Part shown: positions 18,057 through 31,606 of the stretch, piece by piece
Layout of the letters: each line of letters begins with the position of its first letter
Position numbering within the stretch: position 1 is the stretch's first letter
NCBI GenBank assembly: GCA_000961585.1
Contig: LADN01000032.1
Coordinates: 1-35,502 of the forward strand
Direction of reading: 5' to 3'
Origin: Peptococcaceae bacterium BRH_c4a
GTDB lineage: Bacteria > Bacillota > Desulfotomaculia > Desulfotomaculales > Desulfocucumaceae
Length of the DNA stretch: 35,502 nt
The notes under the pieces: generated by a model
What the model was told of the DNA's origin: nothing
Databases searched by the model: none
Seen by the model: the letters and a program-made list of their open reading frames with translations, nothing else
Translations under genes and position numbers: made by a program

Positions 18057-18119
18057 TTGAGGTTTAAAAAGAAAAGTGTCGGGATCAAGGAGATTAGCGG
18101 AGTTGATTTGCAGAGTTGA
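18057..18119 (+). other. Possible 20-codon leader ORF before the synthase
   Basis: A strong AAGGAGG (18044-18050) has no gene behind it except a TTG-started frame of 20 codons (MRFKKKSVGIKEISGVDLQS) ending 23 bp before the synthase ATG. The end of the frame runs into a near-perfect tandem repeat of AGTTGATTTG. It could be a short translated leader that couples or tunes synthase expression, or simply a vestigial ribosome site. Confidence 0.25.
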
Positions 18120-18142
18120 TTTGTAAAAAGGAGGCAATACAA

Positions 18143-20617
18143 ATGGCGATTAATGTTGAGGAAATGCAGAAGAAAGAACAGTGGTGGTGGATGGCGGAGC
18201 AGAAGCGTTCCAAGAGGCTGGACTACCTGCGCAAGGCTGCGTGGAAGAAAGGCGCCGTGGGAGGAGCGTACCTGCCCGGAATAAAGATCGACCTGAGCAG
18301 GCCGGTGCTGTACACCCAGGCCTGGGAGGAGAACTCGGGCGACCCCACAATGCTGAGGAAGGCCAAGGCGCTGGCCCATGTATGGGATAACACTCCTATT
18401 TTCATCACCGACCATGCCAACCTGGTGGGCTATGTGGGGGACGCCCCGAACACACTGATGTGGCACCAGGAGGGGCTGTTCCTCACTAACGAGGAAATAT
18501 ACAATGACCGCACGGTGATTCCGGATCCGGAGGAAGATTCGCTCCAGGTAATGCGCGATATTTGCGACTACTGGTCGGATAAGACTGCGCTGGGCAAGGT
18601 GATGGAGCTGTCCAGCCCTGAGGACGCAGTCAAGTTTATGAGCGGCTACATCGCCTGGGGCGTACCCAGCTCGGCCCTGACCTATTCGACCAAGCAGTAC
18701 GACTGGTGGATGCGGGGCTTCAACTACATAATTGATGAGATCGACAAGAACATTGCCAAAGCTGAAGAAGAGATGAACGGCATCCCCTCGCCCGAGATAC
18801 TGGGAAATTACGACAAGATAAAGAACTGGGAGGGCATGAAGATCGTCCTGGAGGCCGGTATCAGGTGGGCCGGGCGCTACGCCAGGCTGGCCAGGATAGA
18901 GGCCGAGAACTTTGAGACCGATCCCAGGAGAAAAGAAGAGCTGCTGAGGATAGCCGAGACGTGCGAGCGGGTGCCGGCCAACCCTCCCAGAAACCTGCAG
19001 GAATCGTTGCAGTTTGAACATTTTGTTCAGGTTATGGCCCGTTATGAGGCCGGGGAAGCCGCCTGGCCGGCCCGCCCGGACTACTGGCACTTCCCGTACT
19101 ACGACAAGGACGTCAACCAGACCAAGCGGATCACCAAGGAAGAGGCCACCGAACTGGTGGGTGAATTCATGATCAGGGCTTATGAAGTGGGCATTTATTT
19201 CATCTCCTTTATCCGGGAAGCCCTGCAGGGAATCACGGGCACCTGGGTATGGACCATCGGCGGCGTCAAGCCGGACGGCAGCGACGCATGCAACGAGCTG
19301 ACCGAAGTCTTCTGCCAGGCGGCCCGGCTGGTGAGGGTGGCCAATCCGACACTGTCGTTCAGGTACCACTCCATGGTGCCGGACTCCACGCTGCGGGAGG
19401 TATTCGAGTGCATCAGGCAGGGGCTGGGGTATCCCAACATAAGGCACGACCCGGTACTGATCGCCAACATGATGCACTGGCACAAGCACCCCATCGAGGA
19501 AGCGCGGACATGGGTGAACCAGGCGTGCATGTCGCCGTGTCCCACCACCAAGCACGGGGCACAGCCCTTCCGGATGGCCTCGGCCACCGTCATTACCTGC
19601 AAGGCCATTGAGTACGCCCTGCACGACGGCATGGATCCGGTGGCCCAGATGCAGATTGGGCCGCAGACCGGGGACGCCAGGAAGTTCAAGACCTATGAGG
19701 AGCTGTATGAGGCGTGGTACATCCAGATCAAGTACCTGATGGACCTGCTGGTGCGGTTTGTCAACCTGGCCCGGATAAAGGACCCCGAGTTTTACGGCCG
19801 CCCGTTCCTGTCAGGGATTTATGAGCGGGCTGTGGAGCAGGGAACCGATGTGTGCAACCCGAAGGGAGAGAGGGGTAACTGCTGGACCACGTTCTTTGGC
19901 TGGATAGAGAACGGCGATTCACTGGCGGCCGTAAAGAAGCTGGTGTTTGACGAGAAGAAGTACACCATGGAACAGCTCATTGAGGCGATGGACAAAAACT
20001 GGGAAGGCAGAGAAGAGATGCGCCTTGACTTTGTGAAGGCGCCCAAGTGGGGCAACGACGACGACTACGTGGATCAGGTCCACGTACGGGCGATGCGGGA
20101 CGTTGCCAAGCACTCCATGGAGATGAAGGATCCCACGGGCAACCCGTGGCCGCCCCTGCCGGAGATGGTGAGCGCCAATATTTCATACAGCAGCAAGGTG
20201 GGCGCGCTGCCCAACGGTCGGAGGCTGGGAGATCCTCTGTACGACGGCGGATTGTCGCCGGGCACAGGACTGGACAAGAAGGGACCGACGGCGGTTTTGC
20301 GGTCGGCTTCCAAGATCAACCACATCACAGACGGCAGGGCCTTTCTTTTGAACCAGAGGCTGTCGCCGGTGCAGCTGCAGGGTGAGAAGGGTTACCAGTT
20401 GTGGAGGGACTACATTAAAACCTGGTTTGACCTGGGCATCGACCATGTGCAGTTCAACATGGTGAACAACGAGACCCTGCGGTCGGCTCAAAAGGATCCC
20501 GAGAAATATAATGAGCTGATTGTGCGGGTGGCGGGCTACAGCGCCCACTTTGTGGACATCAGCAGGAAGACCCAGGACCATATCATCCAGCGGACGATTC
20601 AGGAACTCGGTTGTTAG
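18143..20617 (+). CDS. assA: Fumarate-adding glycyl radical enzyme, alkylsuccinate/benzylsuccinate synthase alpha subunit
   Basis: Catalytic subunit, 824 residues, of an X-succinate synthase, which adds a hydrocarbon C-H across the double bond of fumarate. The thiyl Cys462 is in ACMSPCPTTKHG. Arg477, 15 residues later, sits where benzylsuccinate synthase has fumarate-binding Arg508. The radical site is Gly798 in VRVAGYSAHFVDIS, 26 residues from the end. Dehydratase and decarboxylase relatives have CVEP at the Cys site; MSP here is typical of fumarate-adding enzymes. Length is slightly below BssA of Thauera (about 865). The neighbouring ligase, mutase and decarboxylases favour an alkane substrate (AssA/MasD type), but the subfamily cannot be settled by reading alone. 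ATG 18143 follows AAAAAGGAGG; the 27 upstream in-frame bases contain that ribosome site. Confidence 0.93.
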   Translation: MAINVEEMQKKEQWWWMAEQKRSKRLDYLRKAAWKKGAVGGAYLPGIKIDLSRPVLYTQAWEENSGDPTMLRKAKALAHVWDNTPIFITDHANLVGYVGDAPNTLMWHQEGLFLTNEEIYNDRTVIPDPEEDSLQVMRDICDYWSDKTALGKVMELSSPEDAVKFMSGYIAWGVPSSALTYSTKQYDWWMRGFNYIIDEIDKNIAKAEEEMNGIPSPEILGNYDKIKNWEGMKIVLEAGIRWAGRYARLARIEAENFETDPRRKEELLRIAETCERVPANPPRNLQESLQFEHFVQVMARYEAGEAAWPARPDYWHFPYYDKDVNQTKRITKEEATELVGEFMIRAYEVGIYFISFIREALQGITGTWVWTIGGVKPDGSDACNELTEVFCQAARLVRVANPTLSFRYHSMVPDSTLREVFECIRQGLGYPNIRHDPVLIANMMHWHKHPIEEARTWVNQACMSPCPTTKHGAQPFRMASATVITCKAIEYALHDGMDPVAQMQIGPQTGDARKFKTYEELYEAWYIQIKYLMDLLVRFVNLARIKDPEFYGRPFLSGIYERAVEQGTDVCNPKGERGNCWTTFFGWIENGDSLAAVKKLVFDEKKYTMEQLIEAMDKNWEGREEMRLDFVKAPKWGNDDDYVDQVHVRAMRDVAKHSMEMKDPTGNPWPPLPEMVSANISYSSKVGALPNGRRLGDPLYDGGLSPGTGLDKKGPTAVLRSASKINHITDGRAFLLNQRLSPVQLQGEKGYQLWRDYIKTWFDLGIDHVQFNMVNNETLRSAQKDPEKYNELIVRVAGYSAHFVDISRKTQDHIIQRTIQELGC

Positions 20618-26579: not shown

Positions 26580-26990
26580 ATGGCGATAAGCGAGAAGGTA
26601 AAAGAGATCCTGAAAAGCGACTCCAGGTTAAATGTGTACAGCACCTCAAGCAAAGACGGTACGCCAAACATTGCCGTAATAGGCTCCACCACGCTGCTTG
26701 AAGACGGCACTTTAATTATAGCTTTGGGCGACAACAGAACTTACGCCAATTTAAAAGAAAATCCATGTGCGGTTTGCCTGGTGAAAATAGAAGGGACAAA
26801 AGGCCTGCAAATGGAAGGCTGCAGACTGAACCTGAAAGTAAAATCAGTTCTGGACGGCGGAGAAGTATATGATAATTTTATAGCGAAACTGAGGAAAAAA
26901 ATAGGGTCTGCCGCAGATATTTTAAAGCATGTCGTGATCTTTGAGATTGCAAAGGCTAGGCCGGTTGTCGACATGGGACAGGGGATATGA
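26580..26990 (+). CDS. Pyridoxamine 5'-phosphate oxidase-fold (FMN-binding split barrel) protein
   Basis: A 136-residue small split-barrel protein of the PNPOx-like group, visible in NVYSTSSKDGTPNIAVIGST, then LIIALGDNRTYANLKENP and an AVCLVKIEG strand. Such proteins bind FMN, F420 or heme and can act as small reductases. Its role in hydrocarbon activation is unknown; a redox partner or a radical-quenching repair function is conceivable. ATG 26580 has GGGAGG 9 nt upstream. Its stop codon coincides with the left edge of the synthase relic at 26986, so the junction of that rearrangement lies exactly at the gene's end. Confidence 0.8.
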   Translation: MAISEKVKEILKSDSRLNVYSTSSKDGTPNIAVIGSTTLLEDGTLIIALGDNRTYANLKENPCAVCLVKIEGTKGLQMEGCRLNLKVKSVLDGGEVYDNFIAKLRKKIGSAADILKHVVIFEIAKARPVVDMGQGI

Positions 26991-27033
26991 GGAGCTGTAT
27001 GAGGCGTGGTACACCCGGGTCAAGTTTCTGTTG
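26986..27033 (+). pseudogene. Fragment of a second fumarate-adding synthase gene
   Basis: A 27-nt stretch from TATGAGGAGCTGTATGAGG onward (26986-27012) is identical to assA at 19694-19720, and similarity continues to about 27033. Translated, it gives YEELYEAWYTRVKFLL against YEELYEAWYIQIKYLM in the intact enzyme (residues about 518-533). The differences are conservative, so the fragment stems from a diverged, once functional paralogue rather than a fresh copy. It lies immediately before the second MoxR/VWA pair, as if a second assA-MoxR-VWA set had collapsed here. Confidence 0.78.
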
Positions 27034-27063
27034 TTAAGGTAATCATCAGCAGGAAGGAGCAGT

Positions 27064-27924
27064 ATGTTGACGCATCAAAAAGACATAAAAGTTCCTCTGC
27101 TGGATAATTATTTCTTTGCTCCAGGAGAGGTCATATTTGTTTTGGAAAAATTAGAAAAACTTAGCAGGAAACATCCTTTGAATATTCTCATTACCGGCAG
27201 GCAGGGCTGCGGAAAGTCATCCCTGGTGCGCCAGTTTGCCGCTTTTTACAATCGCCCGATGGCTGTTTTCCAGATGGGGCTGCTTTCCGAGCCCGGCCAA
27301 CTGTTTGGAGAGCACGCTTTGAGGGGTGGAGAGACCTTTTATCAGGAATTTCTTTTCCCCAAAGCCATTTCCACCCCGTATTGCGTGATACATTTAGAGG
27401 AAATCAACCGTCCGGAACACCCCAAGGCGCTCAATGAGCTTTTTTCCGTTTTATCGGAAAACAGGTGTATTTGGGTAGACCAACTGGGACTGGTTGAAGT
27501 GGCCGAAGGGGTGATCTTTTTTGCCACCATGAACGAAGGGGAGGAATTTACCGGGACGGATTCTCTGGATGCCGCTCTGAGGGATAGATTTTACACTATT
27601 TCACAGGACTATTTACCGGCCGATGTGGAAAAAGAGGTGCTGTGCCTGAAGTCCGGGATCAGCGCAGAGGACGCCGGGATGATCATCGGCATTGTACACA
27701 GGCTCAGAAAAAATCCCCAGTTCCCGGTGTCGGTTTCCACCAGGCACAGTTTGATGATGGCCGAGCTGATGGCTGTGGGCGCCTCCATCAGGGAGGCCAT
27801 GATATACAGCCTGCAGGTATCAAGGGACCTGGTTGAGTCTATACTGCTGTCCGTTCATGCCGAGACGGGTGATCTGCAGGCCAGAGAGGACAAATACGTG
27901 CTTTTCAGGCCCGATCAGAGGTGA
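27064..27924 (+). CDS. MoxR-family AAA+ ATPase, BssE-like (copy 2)
   Basis: A 286-residue paralogue of the ATPase at 21955. Walker A GRQGCGKSS, Walker B VIHLEEIN, the LSEPGQLFGEH block and the LRDRF arginine motif are shared, with identity by eye of about two thirds across the core. N- and C-termini differ, which suggests a different partner or client. The start is ATG with AAGGAGC upstream. It directly follows the synthase fragment, and its stop overlaps the start of the second VWA gene (GTGA). Confidence 0.92.
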   Translation: MLTHQKDIKVPLLDNYFFAPGEVIFVLEKLEKLSRKHPLNILITGRQGCGKSSLVRQFAAFYNRPMAVFQMGLLSEPGQLFGEHALRGGETFYQEFLFPKAISTPYCVIHLEEINRPEHPKALNELFSVLSENRCIWVDQLGLVEVAEGVIFFATMNEGEEFTGTDSLDAALRDRFYTISQDYLPADVEKEVLCLKSGISAEDAGMIIGIVHRLRKNPQFPVSVSTRHSLMMAELMAVGASIREAMIYSLQVSRDLVESILLSVHAETGDLQAREDKYVLFRPDQR

Positions 27925-29666
27925 ATACGGTGAATATCGATCCCTTGTTGAAAGTTGGGAATCCTCTTTTTTATTACTCTGAATACTGGCGGTGCAATAA
28001 ATCCGCCCTTGAGCCGAGGGAACTGGCCAATGTTTTGCGGGCGCTGCGTAAGGTGGGGGCGTATATTGCCACAAATATCAAGCCCATTGAGTGGGCCGGC
28101 GCACCAGGCTCACCGGAAGAGAAAATACTCCTGGATATATCCCTGGTTTTGGGCAAATATCCGGTACCGGCCTGGAAAATGGATTTTCTGGTGGGCATGG
28201 TGGTCAGGGAAGCGTACCGCTGCAGGGAACTGAGCGATATGGTGGTGGTGCATCTAAAACCGGCGATGGAAGCGATGAAATCAGGCCACAGTGCGTTGAT
28301 GGGCCGCATGGCGGATATCGGAGAGGATATTTATGTCCGGCAGGCTGCCTGCGGCGCAGTCTGGGAGAATTATCTGATCAAGATATGGAACTCTTGCAGG
28401 CGCAAGGAAACAAGGGACCTTTTCCTTCCTCCCACCGCCAGGTGTCTGTTCCAGATATGGGAAGAGTTCTGTCTTGAGGGCAGGATTCAGGGCGTACACC
28501 ATGATTACTTGCAGCCCTTGGAAATTCTGTTGTCCCATACCAGGGCCATTGGCGAATCCGCCGGCCTGCGGTCAATTTTGAAGCGCAGCAAGGTGAGAAG
28601 TGAAATTTATCTCAGCATGTGGCAGGAGGTTGTGCGCTTCATCGACGGGTGGGAGGACGAAAGACCCCTGGAAAATAACGGTGCGGAGATGCTGGATGAG
28701 AGAGGCGTAAAAAAGTTTTCGGAAATGCTGGAAGATATTCCGGATGAGAACCCGGATGATGTTGATGAAAGGAAACCTTTGCCCGGGGAGGGCGAAAGTA
28801 ATCTGGACAAACTGGTTCAGGATGTTAATAAGGAGACTGAGGAAACTGAGGAAAATGGCATTGACGGCAAGGTGCGGATGGCTTACGGGAACGATACCGG
28901 GTCGATGATGGAAACCGTTTTTGTCAACGCCAGCCTGCCCTGCCGGATTCCCCGGGATCCCTTGCTGGTGCAGCGTTTAAAGAGCGCCTTTGAATTGCAA
29001 AGATGGGGTAAGCCGGAACATTTCCGGAACAACAGGGGCTTGCCGTACGGGAAGATTGACGGCAGGAGACTGTACCGGGCGGCTTTGGACGGGAAGATAT
29101 TCCGGCAAAAGGAATTCACCAAGGACAGCAATGCCTGGAACATTACCATTCTTGTGGACGCATCGGCTTCCATGAAGGGGGAAGCGGGAAATATTGGAAA
29201 AGACTGGGCCATTACGCAAAGGACGTTTGTGTCACTGTGCGAGGCAGCCAGGGGTTCCGGCAATACCCTAAATGTGTTTGCTTATTATGAGATTGGCGGC
29301 CGCTGTCAGATCAGCAGGTTATACCATGGCAACAGGTTGTACAGTGTTACCCCGCAGGGGCACACCCCCACCGGCCAGGCCATAGTGGCCGCAGTTTTAA
29401 AGACTCCTAAAGACAAAAGGCGGATGATTGTGCATATCACCGACGGGGAGCCCAACTGCGGGGCCGGTGTGGAACAGGCCCTGGAGTTTTGCTCCAGGGA
29501 AGGGGTGGAACTGGTGACCATCGGGTCCTATAATGATGTGGAAGAGGTAAAGGCTTTGTTTCAGGAACAGTACGGGGACAGGGTTTATTTGATGGAATCT
29601 CTGGAACATCTCCCCGAAGGGCTGGAGTCGTTGTTAAGGAGGAAGTTGCTGGACAGGGGTCACTGA
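27921..29666 (+). CDS. VWA-domain protein (copy 2), HExxH lost
   Basis: A 581-residue paralogue of the VWA protein at 22787. The N-terminal LANVLRALRKV block, PVPAWKMDFLVGMVV and GEDIYV are shared, but the HExxH site of copy 1 reads REAYR here, so any zinc-peptidase function is gone. An acidic linker (PDENPDDVDERKPLPGEGES and onward, about 275-315) is present only in this copy. The C-terminal VWA domain keeps DASAS and HITDGEPNCG. It pairs with the MoxR ATPase upstream. The start may be GTG 27921, overlapping the previous stop, or GTG 27930, which has AGAGGTGA at a better distance. Confidence 0.87.
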   Translation: MNTVNIDPLLKVGNPLFYYSEYWRCNKSALEPRELANVLRALRKVGAYIATNIKPIEWAGAPGSPEEKILLDISLVLGKYPVPAWKMDFLVGMVVREAYRCRELSDMVVVHLKPAMEAMKSGHSALMGRMADIGEDIYVRQAACGAVWENYLIKIWNSCRRKETRDLFLPPTARCLFQIWEEFCLEGRIQGVHHDYLQPLEILLSHTRAIGESAGLRSILKRSKVRSEIYLSMWQEVVRFIDGWEDERPLENNGAEMLDERGVKKFSEMLEDIPDENPDDVDERKPLPGEGESNLDKLVQDVNKETEETEENGIDGKVRMAYGNDTGSMMETVFVNASLPCRIPRDPLLVQRLKSAFELQRWGKPEHFRNNRGLPYGKIDGRRLYRAALDGKIFRQKEFTKDSNAWNITILVDASASMKGEAGNIGKDWAITQRTFVSLCEAARGSGNTLNVFAYYEIGGRCQISRLYHGNRLYSVTPQGHTPTGQAIVAAVLKTPKDKRRMIVHITDGEPNCGAGVEQALEFCSREGVELVTIGSYNDVEEVKALFQEQYGDRVYLMESLEHLPEGLESLLRRKLLDRGH

Positions 29667-29712: not shown

Positions 29713-29988
29713 GTGGGGATTACGATCAAACTGGCGGGTTCCATAGCCCTGCTGACGGGCGGCCGGGATGTCCTGGAGAGCGGGGCCTCCAATGTGATGG
29801 GCTGTATTGACGACCTTGAAGCCCGGTTTTCGGGAATAAAAAACAGTTTGTGCGATGATTCGGGAAACCTGAAAGGGGTTTTCAACATTTATGTCAACGG
29901 GGAAAATGTGAAGTATCTGCAGGGTGCTGTCACACCGCTTGAGGACGGGGACGAGGTAAGCATTATACCTGCCATGGCCGGAGGCTAG
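29713..29988 (+). CDS. MoaD/ThiS-like ubiquitin-fold sulfur carrier
   Basis: A 91-residue protein ending in PAMAGG. The beta-grasp pattern FNIYVNGENVKYLQG, then LEDGDEVSIIPAMAGG, is that of MoaD/ThiS small sulfur carriers, whose C-terminal Gly-Gly is adenylated by an E1-like enzyme and converted to a thiocarboxylate. An E1-like MoeB/ThiF protein is encoded two genes downstream. MoaE, ThiG and other molybdopterin or thiamine genes are absent, so this pair is probably dedicated to a local task, such as sulfur delivery or protein conjugation. The start is GTG after AAGGGGGCGG. Confidence 0.88.
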   Translation: MGITIKLAGSIALLTGGRDVLESGASNVMGCIDDLEARFSGIKNSLCDDSGNLKGVFNIYVNGENVKYLQGAVTPLEDGDEVSIIPAMAGG

Positions 29989-30111
29989 GAGGCTGTTGAA
30001 AAAGTCCATCTGCGGCGTTGCGGCGGCGGCTTCAATGCTCAACGTACAAGGAGTACGCCTCCGCTTGAAGCCTTGCCGCGCCTTGCATCTGGAGCTTTTT
30101 GAACAGCCTCC
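29988..30111. repeat. Imperfect palindromic (MITE-like) repeat
   Basis: An approximately 124-bp imperfect palindrome. The left end GGAGGCTGTTGAAAAAG and the right end CTTTTTGAACAGCCTCC are inverted copies with one mismatch, and the interior arms (GCTTCAA/TTGAAGC and others) pair around a centre near 30050. It has no coding capacity and looks like a non-autonomous foldback element, inserted exactly at the stop codon of the MoaD-like gene. It would form a long hairpin in the operon transcript. The region 30112-30231 holds nothing else recognisable. Confidence 0.8.
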
Positions 30112-30231
30112 GGTTGTAGTCGAATAAGTACTTTGTTGACCTCTTAATATAGTTTTGCAACACTCTCCTAGAAGAGGCTGCAATGCATAATTATGGTTTC
30201 AGGCCGCCAATGGGAAGGGGGATTGTCTTCG

Positions 30232-30816
30232 ATGATTGTTGATCATCCGGGATCTCACTTTATTTTTGTTTATCACCCTTATGTATTTTACGGGCGCAGC
30301 TATATTACCTATCAGGGCAGGCCCCTGACTAATAAAGAATATCTGGACCACTGGGGCAAGTGGATTGTTCTCGGTTCAAGAAAAAGACTGGATGATCTGG
30401 CCGCAAAACTGGATCTTTATGTTGAACAGGGTGTGATTCCCTGTGTTAAGTATGACCGGGAGCCTCCCAAAGAAATGGATTTGGAGGTCAAGCAGAAATT
30501 GCGGCGCCGCTTTATTGATGTCGGCCAGGATGAAGCTGTTTTAATGGAATGTGTAATGTGTGTCTTCTGTGACCAAAGACAGAGAGAAGAAGTGTGGCAG
30601 ATTTTGACCGGCCTGGGGGTGAACCTCAAGGCCTGGGTTTATGAGAAGGAAACCATTGACCTGTGGCTGCCGGGCGGGATATTGCTGGAGAGATGGATTG
30701 CCCAGAATTGTTCCGGTGAAGACGAAGCAGAAAAGGTCAGGCAGGAATCGCAGGAGCGGTTTAGGGAAACATTCAAAAATGAGGATGCCATTTATAAAGG
30801 ATGGCCTCAGCAGTAG
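30232..30816 (+). CDS. Unknown protein with CxxCxxC motif
   Basis: A protein of about 194 residues that I do not recognise. A CVMCVFC motif (CxxCxxC) lies near the middle, followed by an Arg/Glu-rich helical segment; the C-terminus is strongly charged. The first part is aromatic-rich (HFIFVYHPYVFYGRSYITYQ). No signal peptide or membrane helix. It lies between the MoaD-like carrier and the E1-like enzyme, which suggests it works with them, perhaps as the acceptor or a sulfur or metal handling partner. ATG 30232 with AAGGGGG 10 nt upstream is preferred to ATG 30193. Confidence 0.6.
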   Translation: MIVDHPGSHFIFVYHPYVFYGRSYITYQGRPLTNKEYLDHWGKWIVLGSRKRLDDLAAKLDLYVEQGVIPCVKYDREPPKEMDLEVKQKLRRRFIDVGQDEAVLMECVMCVFCDQRQREEVWQILTGLGVNLKAWVYEKETIDLWLPGGILLERWIAQNCSGEDEAEKVRQESQERFRETFKNEDAIYKGWPQQ

Positions 30817-30832
30817 CGCAGGGGGAGGGCCA

Positions 30833-31606
30833 GTGAAGGACGTGGATGTTGATTGCCGGCAGAGGTACAGCCGCCAGATCATGCTGCCCGGGGTAGGTGT
30901 GGAGGGACAGCGAAAGATCGGGGCGGCCAGTGTTTTTATTGTGGGGGCGGGCGGCCTGGGATCGGCGGCGGCCTATTACCTGTGTGCCGCCGGGGTGGGA
31001 AAGCTGGGTGTTGCCGACCCCGACCAGGTGGAGTTAAGTAATTTACAGAGGCAAATTCTGCACAACACTGAACGCCTCGGGGCGGCAAAGGCGTTTTCGG
31101 CGGCCCAGACCTTGAGGGACTTGAATCCGGAGGTGGAAGTAGCCCCCCGCCGGCAGAGGCTGACTGTGGAAAATGCGCGGGAATTGCTGGATGGTTATGA
31201 CCTGGTGGTGGACTGCAGCGACAACTTCCACACCCGCCACGCTGTCAACGACGCCTGTGTGTGTGCCCGCAGGCCCCTGATTTACGGCGCGGTGCAGGGT
31301 TTTCAGGGGCAGGCCATGACCATTGTGCCCGGGGAAGGGCCCTGTTACCGCTGCCTCTGCCCTGATCCGCCGGCCCCGGAGGAGGCGCCGCCGGGCTGGC
31401 AGCGGGGAGTGATCGGTGTGCTGCCCGGCTTAATCGGACTGGTTCAGGCCTCCGAGGCGCTGAAGCTGATTCTTGGCCGGGGGGAGTTGCTGACCGGCAG
31501 GCTGTTGCTTTACGACATGCTGGCCATGGAGTTTTCCCAGGTCAGGGTAAAGAGAAGCGCCGGCTGCCCGGCCTGCGGGATGGTAAAAGAGGTGTTTAAA
31601 AAATAG
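30833..31606 (+). CDS. ThiF/MoeB-like E1 adenylyltransferase
   Basis: A 257-residue E1-like enzyme that adenylates the C-terminal glycine of a ubiquitin-fold carrier. It has RYSRQIMLPGVG, the nucleotide loop GAGGLGS (38-44), the SNLQRQILH motif with catalytic arginines, VVDCSDNFHTRHAVND, and zinc cysteines CYRC and CPAC near the C-terminus. No rhodanese domain is present, so a separate sulfur donor is needed. GTG 30833 has GGGGAGG just upstream. With the MoaD-like protein at 29713 it forms a self-contained activation pair at the end of the synthase operon. Confidence 0.92.
   Translation: MKDVDVDCRQRYSRQIMLPGVGVEGQRKIGAASVFIVGAGGLGSAAAYYLCAAGVGKLGVADPDQVELSNLQRQILHNTERLGAAKAFSAAQTLRDLNPEVEVAPRRQRLTVENARELLDGYDLVVDCSDNFHTRHAVNDACVCARRPLIYGAVQGFQGQAMTIVPGEGPCYRCLCPDPPAPEEAPPGWQRGVIGVLPGLIGLVQASEALKLILGRGELLTGRLLLYDMLAMEFSQVRVKRSAGCPACGMVKEVFKK

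Follow-up and report, generated by a model that had tools for sequence, protein, structure and literature searches.

The locus lies in Peptococcaceae bacterium BRH_c4a, on a contig of 35,502 nucleotides that was analysed at its full length (hereafter the window) and is one of the 98 contigs of a 3.49-Mb draft genome. An operon runs from assA, the only synthase gene of its type in the window, through a small-subunit-like gene, a first MoxR/vWA pair (MoxR1/vWA1), an activase gene and a DUF4125 gene to a flavin-fold gene, after which come a second MoxR/vWA pair (MoxR2/vWA2), a ThiS-like gene and further genes. With its assA, activase, MoxR/vWA chaperone pair and flavin-fold gene, the operon resembles the (1-methyl)alkylsuccinate synthase (ass/mas) loci of Desulfatibacillum, Smithella and Desulfosarcina. 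There are four PFL-like genes genome-wide, the other three being 35-39% identical to assA, and the nearest AssA among the genomes compared stands at 68%. The G+C content of assA is 58%, against 43-54% in the genes 3' of it, suggesting either separate ancestry or different constraint. The features of the locus are:

18116..20617, + strand: assA, an intact (1-methyl)alkylsuccinate-synthase-type glycyl radical enzyme gene (Pfam PFL-like and Gly_radical)
19694..19741, + strand: source segment within assA (codons 527-542 counted from the TTG at 18116; 518-533 from the ATG at 18143)
26580..26990, + strand: flavin-fold (PNPOx-like) gene with the natural C-terminus of its family (DMGQGI, then stop)
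26986..27033, + strand: assA-derived patch, which would read YEELYEAWYTRVKFLL; no open gene
27044..27056, + strand: 13-nt exact match to assA 20557-20569 (CATCAGCAGGAAG), collinear with the 48-nt patch
27064..29666, + strand: second MoxR AAA+/vWA pair (MoxR2/vWA2), grouping with stand-alone pairs from genomes of the same bacterial order
29713..30816, + strand: ThiS-like gene (29713-29988) and g207 (30193-30816), found directly after the flavin-fold gene in relatives L057 and L089

Only 73 bases separate the flavin-fold gene from MoxR2, and most of them belong to the patch, which matches a segment of assA 7.3 kb upstream at 42 of 48 bases and on the same strand. A preliminary description of this DNA had already noted the block at 26986-27033, and both this position and the assA residues that it named (518-533, if the ATG is the start) hold. 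The identical run that it put at 27 nt is present but comprises 28 nt (19694-19721), followed by a tail in which 14 of 20 bases agree. The excess similarity on which that description turned is borne out by the statistics: E is 1.8e-10 against the whole genome, where the patch is the sole assA-like DNA outside assA, and 100 shuffles gave no match. Even the 20-nt tail exceeds chance, as only about 1 in 10,000 20-mers of the window fit the tail of the assA segment equally well. In a survey of self-copies covering the window and 88 other loci with assA-type or related synthase genes (1.02 Mb outside those genes), the patch scored 60.8 bits and the next-best of the 89 loci 33.7; the comparison with other synthase loci that the preliminary description had called for thus yielded no comparable copy of synthase DNA in any of the 88. 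Repeat statistics drawn from 410 kb of the genome place the patch among the few low-copy exact repeats of at least 28 nt that remain once hairpins and the genome's many intergenic repeats are set aside. The repeat is genuine and far beyond chance. Membership of the many intergenic repeats was rejected, there being two copies only and low-copy surroundings, as was an origin from the other three PFL-like genes, whose corresponding segments are unlike the patch. Searches of IMG/VR with the patch block returned nothing, and assA had no match in IMG/VR or plasmids.

An alignment of the patch with 93 homologous segments puts it closest to the resident assA; the best non-resident synthase agrees at 38 of 48 bases and is equidistant from the patch and the resident gene. 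The six differences sit at codon positions 2, 2, 1, 2, 3 and 1 and alter five residues, while differences among real assA homologues fall mostly at the third position (890/1886). The codon changes had been called conservative, which is true of most in chemical terms but not of a Q to R change. This one falls on the best-conserved residue of the segment, where 90 of the 93 homologues have Gln. With five residues altered and this Gln lost, nothing in the patch suggests that it once evolved under purifying selection as a gene in its own right. Together, these features mark it as a drifting, untranslated and non-functional copy from the resident assA lineage and not as part of another working synthase. 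When polarised on the closest homologues (L073, L068, L064, L122, L076, L063, L036 and L037), three differences would have arisen in the patch and one (T to I) in assA, with two ambiguous. All six fall within the last 20 of the 48 bases (p about 0.003 under even drift), a crowding that simple copying followed by drift does not explain. A diversity-generating retroelement was considered and rejected: four of the six changes are at A of assA, but the other two lie elsewhere, and A makes up 8 of the 24 bases there.

No plausible gene appears to make use of the patch. The frame that would read YEEL across it has only TTG starts, inside the flavin-fold gene, and its only ATG frame (ATG 26987, MRSCMRRGTPGSSFCC) spans 16 residues. 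It is very unlikely that this short frame is a leader peptide, or that the patch acts as a site of translational coupling for MoxR2: drift has touched the tail but not the leading 28 nt, and the patch creates an ATGA overlap with the flavin-fold stop, but the region has neither RNA structure (z 0.39 and 0.16) nor an Rfam match, no similar leader was found in relatives, and the 88 other loci offer no counterpart. We consider it highly improbable that the patch was retained as a co-opted translational leader, with the unchanged 28 nt giving the newly joined MoxR2 a stop/start overlap and a leader; if so, a piece of one enzyme gene would serve as the leader of its own chaperone.

The gene order around the patch differs from that of relatives. 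We found two with the same gene set, both Desulfomonile-like (L057 and L089), in which the order is flavin-ThiS-g207-MoxR2-vWA2, with no synthase between the flavin-fold gene and MoxR2; in the window it is flavin-patch-MoxR2-vWA2-ThiS-g207. In this comparison, the patch sits exactly where the gene order departs from that of the relatives. Phylogenetic trees place the vWA2 of the window with stand-alone pairs from genomes of the same bacterial order (L162-L166; 99/97), and MoxR2 less firmly with the same pairs (94/85), separate from the Desulfomonile pairs (L057, L089 and L061) and from all MoxR1/vWA1, which rules out the second pair as a tandem copy of the first. The stand-alone pairs are themselves of the alkylsuccinate-synthase type and follow folK-like or radical SAM genes. 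The second pair of the window is therefore not what was left of a duplicated synthase operon, given its separate grouping and stand-alone relatives; the trees identify it as an anciently separate, stand-alone type and not as a sister copy from operon duplication. Most likely, it joined the operon by itself; its left joint is exactly where the patch lies. We infer insertion of the pair, as opposed to relocation inside the operon, from two trees and only two relatives that share the gene set. This stand-alone-type second pair, placed differently than in L057 and L089, sets the window apart from the ass/mas operons that it otherwise resembles. Nothing comparable to the patch was seen at the right-hand joint, on the vWA2 side. 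The 9/10-mers GGACAGGGG and GTTGTTAAGG, shared between the joint and the end of vWA2, were dismissed as coincidence, since such sharing occurs in 0.66% of random pairs and their order is reversed.

These observations bear on the main claim of the preliminary description, that the block is the footprint of a lost second fumarate-adding synthase. A distinct synthase that arrived with the second MoxR/vWA pair has some precedent in bss-type loci, where the synthase precedes MoxR and vWA (L169, L171, L172 and L173). Nevertheless, we regard this origin as very unlikely. Of the synthase genes compared, the resident assA is the one that the patch resembles most, and the near-invariant Gln has become Arg; the patch has abrupt edges and intact neighbours, and the second pair is of the stand-alone type. 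The closest relatives of that pair (L162 and L164-L166) stand alone after unrelated genes, the nearest synthase in L163 is divergently transcribed relative to its pair, and no synthase was found ahead of the pair in its own operon in any of these five examples. Relatives with a full second synthase at this spot were also looked for, and neither of the two operons that share the gene set has one there.

As first described, the patch begins at the stop of the flavin-fold gene, overlapping the TGA at 26988-26990, and precedes the second MoxR pair, ending 30 nt ahead of the MoxR2 ATG (27064). The flavin-fold gene ends at the natural C-terminus of its family, therefore the left joint cost the gene nothing, and truncation of the gene by the joint was rejected. 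The patch opens with TATGA, five bases that also end the flavin-fold gene (two from its Ile codon, then the TGA), and the same TATGA is present in assA at the entry point of the copied tract; no microhomology was identified at the exit. The deletion or recombination joint proposed earlier stands to the extent that gene order here differs from that of relatives with the same gene set and that assA-derived DNA marks the spot.

Our preferred reading, held with moderate confidence, is that the patch is repair filler templated from assA at the left joint of the inserted MoxR/vWA pair. In this model, MoxR2/vWA2 would have been joined into the operon between the flavin-fold and ThiS-like genes; the flavin-fold gene, broken at its end (...ATATGA), would have paired there with the TATGA in assA, a short assA tract would have been copied onto that end, and the extended end would have been ligated to the MoxR2 leader, leaving filler that has drifted since. 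Priming by TATGA is perhaps how copying began, though the match could be a five-base coincidence. The model is consistent with known templated insertion by microhomology-mediated template switching, in which a short tract from nearby in the same molecule is inserted with abrupt edges and a few bases shared at entry: the tract here was copied from the same genome, where assA is its unique match, and it lies at a joint of gene order beside a pair of other ancestry. It differs in that the event is deduced from sequence and not observed, and in that the differences crowd at one end. The literature that we found on such insertions concerns mainly eukaryotes. Bacteria also make templated insertions. 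Like a gene relic, the patch derives from a known gene, is non-coding and has drifted non-synonymously, but it comprises only 48 (+13) nt of 2.5 kb and has two clean edges between intact neighbours. Both templated filler and gene relics are well established, and the patch adds a small new example. As filler, it would be a scar marking the union of a stand-alone MoxR/vWA pair with an alkylsuccinate synthase operon and would illustrate on a small scale how operons of this kind come together. The analysis also corrects a tempting but unsupported inference, that of a lost second alkane-activating enzyme. We found no paper combining alkylsuccinate synthase with MoxR.

The flanks of the patch are otherwise unrelated to assA, the 13-nt match near the MoxR2 start being the only further assA-like sequence. 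Its source lies near the 3' end of assA, with order and strand as in the patch. The match overlaps the likely ribosome-binding site of MoxR2 and has an E of about 0.02 in the window; among 110 control leaders with a Shine-Dalgarno match, none reached 12 nt against that part of assA. This is suggestive only, and may reflect a second template jump, the whittling down of a longer assA copy, or chance. Templated filler would need the second jump, or the match would point to a longer copy since lost. It is possible, though doubtful, that a longer and recent copy of the same assA, or of its 3' half, once lay between the flavin-fold gene and MoxR2 and that several deletions reduced it to the patch. 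What keeps this idea alive is the second assA match, which makes two collinear matches within 71 nt, together with synthases downstream of a flavin-fold gene elsewhere. Such loci often hold more than one synthase gene (two in tandem in L065), and in L051 two assA genes lie 2.8 kb downstream of the flavin-fold gene, where they come after two sensor/regulator-like genes on an 8.4-kb contig without MoxR2. A left joint at TATGA would suit a microhomology deletion equally well. Against a remnant, at least three deletions would be needed that together spared both neighbours, nothing else of assA is left, and the 13-nt match at the ribosome-binding site may be chance.

That the patch is an assembly artefact is barely credible: the genome is a draft, but a false join through a repeat would not account for the six differences in the copy, flanked as it is by two genes that are intact and end correctly. 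Long mosaic intergenic repeats, present in many genome copies, occupy both contig ends (94-596 and 34986-35384) and the gap between the ThiS-like gene and g207 (29984-30182), with exact matches reaching 189 nt from the window contig and 266 nt elsewhere; these repeats are the probable cause of the breaks in the assembly and may favour rearrangements in the island. The ThiS-like, g207 and ThiF-like genes (29713-31606) form part of this alkane-activation island, and flavin-ThiS-g207 is kept in L057 and L089. Another genome of the same bacterial order (G019; contigs C145, C107, C90, C84 and C23; loci L036-L041) has several assA-like genes of 51-65% identity, and on C90 there is a run of adjacent glycyl radical enzyme genes.
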